In this document: positions 25,785 through 49,536 of the stretch, piece after piece
How the letters are laid out: every line of letters begins with the position of its first letter
Position numbering within the stretch: position 1 is the first letter of the stretch
Assembly (NCBI RefSeq): GCF_041260155.1
Contig: NC_091932.1
Span: 45,043,629 to 45,107,628, forward strand
Reading direction: 5' to 3'
Origin: Ptychodera flava
Taxonomy: Eukaryota > Hemichordata > Enteropneusta > Ptychoderidae
DNA: 64,000 bases
Notes under the pieces: generated by a model
What the model was told of the DNA's origin: nothing
Seen by the model: the letters and a program-made list of their open reading frames with translations, nothing else
Database searches by the model: none
Program-made: the position numbers and the translations under genes

Positions 25785-25856
25785 ATGAAGTCCTTCCTAT
25801 TACTTGCCTTGTTTCTGATGGAACGTATGTCAGTTACGGTTGAAGGTCAGAGGCCG
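25785..25856 (+). CDS. Gene A exon 1: signal peptide
   Basis: 24 codons, [15 protein letters not shown] onward, with the donor GTGAGT directly after a complete codon (phase 0). The signal peptide starting in this exon shows that a protease domain is not simply missing upstream. Confidence 0.85.
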
Positions 25857-28800
25857 GTGAGTATTCGATAACATCGTGACGAGATCAGAGGTTTTCGCGG
25901 ACTGACCGTGGTGCATCGCACCATGGAGCTAGAAACGGATCCCATCTTGTCAATCTTTATTCTTAAGATGAAGTCTTCCAGCGTTTTGCATCTTTTTGAA
26001 TTTTCTGAAACAATCCAAATACATGTTATACTTTTTCTTTGATCAATGCATCCGATTTCATGAAATCATGAAAATGAAATCATACGTTCGACTTTGTACC
26101 GTGTTTCTTTGTTCATATTGTTTTCTTTCTTTACACACTGTCTATAGTTAACTCACATGTATGCACATATGTACCGTGGTTCGACGCTCTTTTTCGCCTC
26201 ATGTAGACTTTTGACCTAAGATGTGTTGATAATAATGTAACCTGCTGACCCCTGTTTGTTTACTCTGGCACGATTACGAGCGACCATTTTATAGACAAAT
26301 AATGACCAATTATGCATTTTATAGTCGCTCACATTTGATCAGAATTGCAGTATGGGTACCAAAGATCAACAATAAATGTTGTTTCTATCTGTTCAGTGCA
26401 GGAAAATTCTACGTTGATGTTATGACAATGATTTCTGCACAGTACAACCAGAAAAACAACAAGAAATATTTAAACCAGAAAAACAAGAATGACAAAAGTT
26501 GGACATGCTGCTACAGAGAAGATGTTTTGATCCAAAAAGGCAAAAACACAAATATTGAAATTTCACCACATATTTTGCAAAAAGTTTCTCAGCTTGTAAA
26601 AGATGATCTGCAACATTTTGCGAAATCTATCAGCAATATAAATCACTAGGCCATATGTATGTTGTAGTTACAGCACGCAATCTTATTTGCGCTAGTGATA
26701 TGGATGTACACTGTATCCTCAGACAGCTTCGAACTAAAAAAAAATTATAAATCTGAAAATTTACCCAGAAAAAAAAATTAGCACAGCTTTTCTCATTTGG
26801 AAAATTTTTTTTTAGAAATTTACAATTGTAAAAAAATGTTCACAATTTCATTGTGACCACCCTCTCCCAAGATCTAATGGTCTGTCCCTTAATTTGAGCA
26901 GGTCTGTTAATATGTAACAGTTCATAAACAATGACAGGAAATGACTCAAGGTCAGTGGAGTATCCTGTTTCAGTCATTGGCATGTCACCACTCCTGAACA
27001 TTTGCAGAATTTCCCTTTTTCTTACCTCATTTGCACATTTTTGACACTGACGTGTTCATTTGAACAACGTCACATCTCAACCCCTGCATCTACCTGTACA
27101 CCAAATACTGAGATGGTAGCTTAGGCGGTATGGGAGCTTTTGCGTGTGACGGACATACATCCGCACATACATACCCACATGCATACATACATACATACAT
27201 ACATACATACATACATACATACATACATACATACATACATACAGACAGACAGACATACAGACGCCACCGACTCACCATATAAGCTCTTTTTGGTATTTAT
27301 ATAAATACAAAATATGAGCTAAAAGTAGAGTTTTACGCTAGAATTTGGGCCAATATACTTTAGAACTCCCTTCCTTTAACGGAAAATTGGAAAATGTTTT
27401 CTCTGCCATTCGACTTGTGAATAGTACGGTTATTCTGCGCCCAAGTCGGCAATGAGTGTTCCGGCGGAAAGGTGCCTACCCATACCTGCACAAATGTATC
27501 AAAACACATAGCGCAGTTGTTATAAGTATTTCGTTCATTATGTATTACGTTCAAGGAGAACAAACATGTAAACAACAGACACAACGAAAACGAAAACGAA
27601 AAAAGCGCATGCATCGTTTCCTCGAGCACTCAACTCAAGTATGTGTATTTCATTAAATACAGGAAAGCCCTATCAGTCCTATAGATGAAGTAAACTTGAA
27701 TGTCCTTGAACTCACAGACAGTGTTGATGCTATCCGAGAAGACCTTCGCTCTTTCAAGAAAGGTGAATGAATTTGTGACGTACATCAACACCTTGAATGC
27801 TGTGAATATTGCACTTCTAAATGTATCATATTGCATCTTCAATGTTACTGCAGAAACAGTCTTTGATCACAGTCTGAACTTTAGGGAAATATCTGTAATT
27901 TTTGATAATATTTTTTTGTCATTTTTGTTCTGTAAAGTGAGTTCGTTTTTCCTTCTTCTCTATAAAGTATGTTGAGATGTGAATTATTTAGTCAAGGCAT
28001 TGTTTTGAAGGTGGCACACAGTAATGTCAGAGTGACAAATGAAGTCTGGACTGAAAGTCATTGTCTTCCATTACAATAGAAATGACAATGATCACAGGGT
28101 GTATCAGCAAGTTGAAACACTCGACATTTGGACTGAGTTTAGGAGTAGGACAAAAGTTATTTCTCAAACAATAAATACAGGAAAATACATCAAAATCATT
28201 GTAATATGAGCTTTAAAAAGAGAGGTTTAGCATTGCCCCAGGTCAACGTGAAGTTGAATCCGATCTAACTTGAGCTTCTTTTTATCCAATTCAGAAATCC
28301 TGTATAAGGTTGAATCAAAATGCGGAGACGGCACGGTTGGACAGCAGCCTGTCTGCGTCACTCGTATTGGTCCTCTCTCAGGGTCACGTGACGATCAACC
28401 ATCGGAGGTTTCGTGCCTGGCGGACGAAGTCATGACGGGCTGTAGTTCGTACATGCCGGGGGCAGCACACGGCACCAGGGACGGAGAGCGAATGCGCTTC
28501 ACCGATGATGGACAGGCAACATGCGTTGCATACAATGGCGCAGGAGGGACAGGTATGAATGGGAGAATCGAGTGGTTAAAGGTTCAAACTATTGGATTAT
28601 TTATCATGAGTACGCGCCTCGAAAGTGAAAGACTAAACTTTCGCTCAAACTTTCCTCAAGGAATCTTTCAACCATTCTCTTTCAAAATCAAGAAAAAATT
28701 CAGGGGTCACAGTGCAAATTTTGGTACTGGAGAAACAAATTACCCAAGATTTGCCGATATTTGAAATCCAAAATGATCGGCATCCCTGCGTTAACTTCGT

Positions 28801-48300: not shown

Positions 48301-49536
48301 ATAAATGACACTTATGATTTCATTCACACTGTAAACATTTTATCCGCGATGAAATATGTATAGGTATTATGTCGGGTCATGTAATATTTACTCCTGTTGA
48401 TCAGAAACCATTAGTTACACTGAGTCCAATAATAAAATTATTCACTCGCTCTGAAATTCGCACAGTTGTTGTGTTAATGGTAATTTTATGATGTATTTCT
48501 CGGAGGTAGCGGCATCGGGCATCTACGATGGTTATGAAATGGTGCAGTCACTTATAAGGGTCGCTTGAATGAAATTTGAAAAAAAAATTACATCGACTAA
48601 AGACAGGTAGTAAAGTAAAGGAGTTGCATTGTATACGTCAAATGATTTACAACAAATAAGAAAGGAAGACGTTCATCTTGGAGTCAATTCGTTGTTTTGA
48701 ATTTCTAACAGGTGTGACGTCCTATGCTGCCTGCTGCAGCGCCCCCAACCTACAGTGTCAAGTGAAATACTCTGCGCGAAGTGGCGTTGAAGCCAACGAT
48801 AAGGCAAATGTTCGCTGTGACAGTGGGTGGATCTTGACGGGATGTAACGTGTTCACCTATTGGTTGAATACGGATGGAGCATACATCGAAGGTAAAGATA
48901 ACTGATTTTTATTGGGCGGCATTGGACACCTCATTTCACGTACACTTTGATTTATTGTACAACCGTCAGTGTCACCTGAGACATGCACCCGTTGCTTCAT
49001 ATACGAGTATTTGCGTATTACTGGAAAAAAGAAACTGGCGTTATTAACTTTCAGGTAGAATTTAGTTCGGGAACAATTTTTCTGATGCTAAAACAATAAA
49101 ATTTTTAAATACGCATCCGGTTTGCTTATTGAAGAGACCCATTTTACAACATTACTGACCGCGGTCATATTGAATTTGAAATATCGGTATATTTTAAGTC
49201 GCGCGGTGTTATTTGATTCTCTCACCCAAAATACACGCTAACCACCGACTTTTATTCTTGATTGTACAAGAGAACCCTTCAAGGTTTCATTGAGGAAAGT
49301 TTGATCAGACTTTAAAACTTTGGAGCATGCAACCTTAAGCCTTCATTGTTGTGTTTGCTTTTCATTTCCGTAAAACTAAGTGAAATCAGCTACACAGTTT
49401 TATGTGATTGCTCGTTTCTTTGTTTGTTTTAGTTCAGAGCTATTTTCTTCTCGTTCTAGATAACGTCTGTATTGCTGTTACTGGTGGTGGAGGTGTATCC
49501 GTTTGGGCAGTTGCGACTTGTTGCCGTGGCAACTAG
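45287..49536 (+). CDS. Gene B: secreted PCSK9-type Cys-rich-domain protein without protease, 320 aa, 7 exons
   Basis: Exons: 45287-45370, 45975-46065, 46677-46928, 47487-47630, 48064-48198, 48712-48891, 49460-49536; phases 0,1,1,1,1,1 as in gene A. Residues 1-21 are a signal peptide (MEVFVLIVILASVGC, with a Cys in its core). Residues 32-60 form a heptad helix (L32, V35, V39, L42, I46, V49, I53, I60) ending near Cys68. The remainder is the three-module PCSK9-type domain: [17 protein letters not shown] and GVRPYARCC in module 1, [13 protein letters not shown] closing module 2, GWILTGCNVF, DNVCIAV and VATCCRGN in module 3. It has the same 21 cysteines outside the signal peptide as gene A: the 18 of the family plus three. 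DNVC keeps the DN of human PCSK9 DNTC better than gene A does. It is clearly a tandem duplicate, with shorter introns and no large insertions. Confidence 0.9.
45577..45835 (+). mobile_element. tRNA-derived SINE in gene B intron 1
   Basis: The head 'gtggtccagtggttaggg' is A-box-like, with B-box-like 'gttcggaaccc' and a second 'gagttcgagact'. The body contains 'cccctgagcaaggcacttta', a block seen in widespread vertebrate and invertebrate deuterostome SINEs. The tail has 'atgatgga' and an A-rich end. Confidence 0.7.
45975..46065 (+). CDS. Gene B exon 2: heptad helix
   Basis: 30 codons plus one base; acceptor 'cttgcag', donor 'gtgaga'. It encodes VYEAVQDLTNKIVQVREEIS, a regular amphipathic helix. 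Confidence 0.88.
46677..46928 (+). CDS. Gene B exon 3: most of module 1
   Basis: Acceptor 'aaccag', donor 'gtatga', phase 1 at both ends. It carries Cys68 and five module-1 cysteines. A stretch of about 35 bases around [10 protein letters not shown] is identical to gene A. Confidence 0.92.
47200..47450 (+). repeat. Dispersed repeat, copy 7 (gene B intron 3)
   Basis: Blocks 'ttactggtctactgctc', 'ttcacagtcttagttttc', 'cgaaatcgaacatttta', 'ttaacacagggatggcggcc' and 'ttcttattcttgac' are in family order. Confidence 0.6.
47487..47630 (+). CDS. Gene B exon 4: end of module 1, start of module 2
   Basis: Acceptor 'tttcag', donor 'gtgagt', 144 bp. It encodes [17 protein letters not shown] and KSVCDAWF. 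Confidence 0.92.
48064..48198 (+). CDS. Gene B exon 5: middle of module 2
   Basis: Acceptor 'gatggtag', donor 'gtacgt', phase 1. It has four cysteines as in gene A exon 5, and shares the [12 protein letters not shown] block with an identical stretch of about 33 bases. Confidence 0.9.
48712..48891 (+). CDS. Gene B exon 6: end of module 2 and most of module 3
   Basis: Acceptor 'ctaacag', donor 'gtaaag', 180 bp. It encodes [15 protein letters not shown] and CDSGWILTGCNVF. Confidence 0.94.
49050..49330 (+). repeat. Dispersed repeat, copy 8 (gene B intron 6)
   Basis: Diverged; blocks 'tgaatttgaaatatcgg', 'cttttattcttgattgt' and 'cattgaggaaagtttgatc' are recognisable in order. Confidence 0.5.
49460..49536 (+). 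CDS. Gene B exon 7: end of module 3 and stop
   Basis: Acceptor 'cgttctag'. It encodes DNVCIAVTGGGG and [10 protein letters not shown], then TAG. The Gly run between the last cysteines is longer than in gene A. Confidence 0.92.

Follow-up and report, generated by a model that had tools for sequence, protein, structure and literature searches.

Two tandem genes on the forward strand of the acorn worm Ptychodera flava (contig NC_091932.1, positions 45,043,629 to 45,107,628; this whole 64,000-nucleotide stretch is referred to below as the window) encode the C-terminal domain of PCSK9, a cholesterol regulator and major drug target, as stand-alone, apparently secreted proteins. This had been proposed in an earlier sequence-only reading and is supported here by profile searches, the cysteine pattern, the predicted fold and public gene models. 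With moderate confidence, based on sequence comparison and a structural model, we take the two genes to be tandem paralogues within a hemichordate family of secreted, protease-free proteins that would act as multivalent binders and are built on an old PCSK9-type cassette.

Both proteins match two Pfam families of this domain above the curated cut-offs: PCSK9_C1 (E 6.9e-15 for gene 1 and 1.8e-18 for gene 2) and PCSK9_C3 (E 4.2e-15 and 8.6e-16, respectively). The earlier reading had described three PCSK9-type modules; PCSK9_C2 reached its cut-off in neither protein: gene 1 reached 21.3 bits against a cut-off of 26.1, with the matching stretch lying on module 1, and gene 2 was not listed by Pfam for this family. 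Since a fish PCSK9 (P0012) likewise stays under this cut-off (20.5 bits), the PCSK9_C2 model is a poor discriminator. All 17 distinct sequences retrieved at E≤1 by a PDB sequence search with gene 1 were PCSK9 (best E 2.3e-17), and each gene retains the 18 conserved PCSK9 cysteines (18/18), in PCSK9 order over the three modules. The predicted structure consists of three disulfide-type beta modules and has the fold of the solved PCSK9 domain, with 34% identity in the structural alignment; it also contains the short helix that had been placed ahead of the modules (approximately 38 residues, at positions 30-67 of the gene 1 model). Chance similarity to PCSK9 is ruled out by the PDB search, the Pfam profiles and the structural match.

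The genes lie where they had originally been placed, from the start ATG of gene 1 at 25785 to the last base of the gene 2 stop codon at 49536. Their models were settled before public proteins were searched, and the translations proved identical to the public P. flava proteins P0001 (gene 1) and P0002 (gene 2), for which Pfam lists only PF18463 and PF18459. The starts were picked by hydrophobicity and donor fit, and the signal peptides are thus putative. Both genes are complete, with seven exons and six introns each, AG/GT borders, and intron phases of 0,1,1,1,1,1 in either gene:

25785..40308, + strand: gene 1, entire coding region (7 exons, 321 amino acids, identical to P0001)
25785..25856, + strand: gene 1 exon 1, start ATG at 25785, signal-peptide-like, phase 0 donor
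27663..27762, + strand: gene 1 exon 2, beginning of the heptad helix
28295..28552, + strand: gene 1 exon 3, helix end at Cys67, then most of module 1 (PCSK9_C1)
36197..36340, + strand: gene 1 exon 4, end of module 1 (GVRPYARCC) and first half of module 2
37197..37328, + strand: gene 1 exon 5, second half of module 2; the preceding intron interrupts the Gly codon of T-GC
38199..38378, + strand: gene 1 exon 6, end of module 2 and most of module 3 (PCSK9_C3)
40229..40308, + strand: gene 1 exon 7, remainder of module 3, then the TAG stop codon (40306-40308)
45287..49536, + strand: gene 2, entire coding region (7 exons, 320 amino acids, identical to P0002)
45287..45370, + strand: gene 2 exon 1, signal-peptide-like start, phase 0 donor
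45975..46065, + strand: gene 2 exon 2, heptad helix
46677..46928, + strand: gene 2 exon 3, helix end, Cys68 and most of module 1 (PCSK9_C1)
47487..47630, + strand: gene 2 exon 4, end of module 1 and first half of module 2
48064..48198, + strand: gene 2 exon 5, second half of module 2
48712..48891, + strand: gene 2 exon 6, end of module 2 and most of module 3 (PCSK9_C3)
49460..49536, + strand: gene 2 exon 7, remainder of module 3, then the TAG stop codon (49534-49536)

An alternative signal-peptide exon for gene 1 at 26068 was rejected: its candidate donors fit poorly, and the exon at 25785 has a phase-0 GTGAGT donor and matches the public protein. Across 321 aligned columns the two proteins share 60% identity, and no third copy was found in the window by tblastn with both of them. 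The ratio of nonsynonymous to synonymous substitution rates (dN/dS) between the genes is 0.284 overall and 0.205 in the domain, with dS about 1.1. In module 1 (28295-28552 versus 46677-46928) dS is 0.54, below the values for modules 2 and 3 (1.44 and 1.51), which might reflect gene conversion in exon 3. Gene 1 carries in its third intron a tandem array at 30324-31877 (226-bp unit, 6.9 copies) and a long inverted repeat, looking like a foldback transposon, at 31914-32540 and 34812-35439 (467 nt at 94% and 251 nt at 90% complementarity, 2.3-2.6 kb apart).

By Pfam both proteins lack the subtilase (S8) domain and prodomain of whole PCSK9, and the claimed absence of prodomain and subtilase exons held throughout the window in searches with fish PCSK9. 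A tblastn search with P0012 returned four matches at E≤0.003, all in the C-terminal part of the query (next match E 0.40), and phmmer against 1703 six-frame open reading frames of at least 25 codons returned three at E≤10, all of them C-terminal-domain exons. Overlooked protease exons were sought with a single fish query, which a very diverged or short subtilase exon could escape, and none turned up.

The tandem pair belongs to a wider family. Fifteen protease-free proteins were identified across three acorn worms: six in P. flava (two of them encoded in this window), seven in Saccoglossus kowalevskii and two in Glandiceps talaboti. Together with a further relative, P0005, two crinoid proteins and the fish PCSK9 they form a set of 19, in which Pfam lists a subtilase for the fish protein only. 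Candidates had to be 0.55-1.75 times the query length and to share short words with the query, which excluded most full-length PCSK9; one protein search scored the best 7994 candidates. Five of the six P. flava proteins are probably encoded on one chromosome (common longest contig of 48,197,526 bases), and P0010 and P0011 look like partial gene models. In the crinoids Anneissia japonica (P0018) and Antedon mediterranea (P0019) the three-module cassette forms the ectodomain of a predicted membrane receptor, and for this reason the cassette may be seen as an ancient module for binding outside the cell, one use of which would be PCSK9 with its linked protease. The acorn-worm family is already machine-annotated in public databases as “PCSK9-like”, a label that implies neither a protease nor cholesterol control. 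Literature searches on PCSK9 and hemichordates gave no paper on these genes by title or abstract, and other queries returned mostly papers without PCSK9, which is weak evidence of absence; none was found under the Pfam names and accessions, and PCSK, subtilisin and proprotein have 0 occurrences in the available portion of the P. flava genome paper.

Three findings go beyond the earlier reading: the larger family, the receptor form in crinoids, and the heptad helix with its terminal cysteine. Heptads were scored in 17 proteins (without P0011 and P0012) as the best of many windows and registers, against 2000 shuffles treated alike. The N-terminal segment was long enough in eight of the 17, and in six of these few shuffles were as good (P0001 1, P0002 0, P0003 3, P0004 3, P0006 38 and P0013 22 of 2000). 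All six heptad-bearing proteins have a cysteine between the helix and module 1, and in five of them the number of cysteines after residue 22 is odd (21 in the gene 1 and gene 2 proteins each). These features suggest disulfide-linked coiled-coil oligomers, for helix-bearing members only. The helices would assemble into a coiled coil, with chains bridged by the helix-end cysteine, and the resulting oligomer would present several domain copies and thereby act as a multivalent binder of an extracellular ligand.

Several observations weigh against this proposal. Two N-termini of helix length failed the heptad test (190 of 2000 shuffles as good for P0005 and 2000 of 2000 for P0017) and the linker is just 1-15 residues long in nine of the 17 tested proteins; helix-based oligomers would therefore hold for part of the family only. 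An odd cysteine count also occurs in three of ten proteins without heptads. The N-terminal 66 codons have a dN/dS of 0.70, a sign of weak constraint that speaks against a strict role of the helix sequence. Finally, a His-rich C-terminal domain is a PCSK9 trait that neither protein has (2 of 238 and 4 of 241 residues in the two genes, versus 13 of 223 in human and 7 of 208 in fish), and the known PCSK9 partners are therefore not transferable.

The age of the cassette was addressed with a tree of 54 modules over 72 columns, which the tool flags as too few for many forks (the set does not contain P0004 or P0019, and the short modules P0010 M3 and P0011 M1 were dropped). Modules 1, 2 and 3 (M1, M2 and M3) each unite human, fish, hemichordate and crinoid copies, and the four labels require 3 changes, the minimum possible (shuffled mean 27.2; 0 of 200 shuffles as low). 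M3 and M2 have support of 93/93 and 63/73, respectively. M1 does not form a clade, because resistin is placed inside it on a very long branch, so that resistin's position means little. Because modules group by position, the triplication predates the split of the hemichordate, crinoid and vertebrate lineages; on this sequence evidence the three-module cassette is older than that split, and the grouping is silent on any attached protease. In an unrooted whole-cassette tree the two PCSK9 rows split from the other 18 with support 100/99, and the rows with a helix require 3 changes on it. The intron that falls within the Gly codon of T-GC appears to be common to human PCSK9, whose exon border we take to lie at this site; the available source text places human codon 562 close to the start of exon 11.

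The sequence-only reading had left two origins for the stand-alone domain, an ancestral partner module of PCSK9 or a derived ligand-binding family, and the module tree fits either. Derivation by loss is a real possibility, if short of probable: a duplicate of full-length PCSK9 would have dropped its prodomain and subtilase exons, gained signal-peptide and helix exons, and expanded in hemichordates. PCSK9 homologs are reportedly present in a cephalochordate and in molluscs; if these are protease-linked, they would speak for derivation or for parallel use. The 19 proteins include none from hemichordates or echinoderms with a linked protease, but the length and word filters bar most such proteins from this set; a search aimed at protease-linked invertebrate PCSK9 gave three proteins and missed even the fish PCSK9 in its own alignment, so that its null result proves nothing. 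The shared intron is compatible with either direction.

As to function, the proteins might instead serve in immunity, as effectors or pattern-recognition molecules that are secreted as oligomers and attach to microbes or to damaged membranes. We consider this rather unlikely, although the family is multi-copy in two species and P0005 has an additional C-terminal cysteine cluster (residues 312-345; spacing 6, 3, 13, 6, then CC) that presumably fits the beta-defensin pattern; no database match supports a defensin nature of this tail. The distant fold match of the domain model to the APC-beta domain of TgPLP1, which binds lipid according to the available text of PMC6294395, would also agree with an immune role. 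A further proposal, in which the free domain acts as a decoy or co-factor and competes with a full-length hemichordate PCSK9 for its partners, seems very improbable to us. The common fold and the 18 shared cysteines would suit it, and the accessible part of PMC9816786 reports that partner binding by the C-terminal domain controls PCSK9 activity in vertebrates, with CAP1 (also a resistin receptor), annexin A2 and MHC-I as partners. However, sequence identity to PCSK9 is low, His content is far below that of the vertebrate domain, and no full-length hemichordate PCSK9 was seen, in a search unsuited to finding one. Our preferred reading is a secreted multivalent binding protein, for which an immune role would be one option.

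Outside the two genes lie retroelement pieces: an integrase core (E 3.6e-14) and a reverse transcriptase (E 4.3e-12) downstream of gene 2 at 56156-60311, and two zinc-knuckle open frames on the - strand, at 51759-52676 and 4286-5179. The open frames at 15060-15818 (- strand, 252 codons) and 22464-23168 (+ strand, 234 codons) have no Pfam match at E≤0.01 and are perhaps exons of neighbouring genes.

A structural homology between PCSK9 and resistin has been published before (Hampton 2007), and the acorn-worm family could help explain it. Against resistin heads (a set of three rows, one of them human resistin) the M3 profile scored 27.5, which none of 200 cysteine-preserving shuffles reached. The real score was likewise not reached by any of 200 shuffles for the pooled, M1 and gene 1+2 profiles, and was reached by 9 of 200 for M2; shuffle maxima were 16.9-20.1 (200 per profile), and 15.0 in an earlier run of 100 with the pooled profile only. 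Against the heads, hhalign assigned a probability of 25.8% to the pooled profile and 71.9% to M3, and the Pfam resistin profile was not among the families at E≤1 for either protein. Like resistin/RELM, the two acorn-worm proteins are apparently secreted and have an N-terminal helix with a cysteine and a related module, but resistin/RELM carries one module per chain and forms a trimer, whereas the acorn-worm proteins have three modules in one chain. It is conceivable, if doubtful on these sequence comparisons, that the PCSK9 tail and resistin come from one old family of secreted helix-tethered binders, of which acorn worms would keep the architecture with three modules, crinoids would have made a signalling receptor, and chordates or earlier animals would have fused the cassette to a subtilase, giving PCSK9. 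The tail's first function would then have been ligand binding and receptor cross-linking, not protease regulation.

The APC-beta domain of apicomplexan perforin-like proteins has a three-fold beta-prism arrangement, as in the acorn-worm domain, and its likeness to the PCSK9 V-domain is reported in the available portion of PMC6294395. The crinoid proteins carry the identical cassette type right behind a signal-peptide-like start; unlike the acorn-worm proteins they continue with a Sushi domain, a hydrophobic helix and a long tail, and their linkers before module 1 (1 and 7 residues) hold no heptad helix. The mode of action of the PCSK9 C-terminal domain is described as still under study (PMC9816786, available text), and a natural family with this domain alone, or on the outside of a predicted membrane receptor, offers a direct route to its binding. 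These comparisons suggest that animals use the PCSK9 tail as a binding module in more than one way. Relative to the vertebrate V / Cys-His-rich domain, the acorn-worm proteins share the three-module fold and all 18 cysteines, and differ in the heptad helix and cysteine ahead of the domain and in two additional cysteines in module 2.
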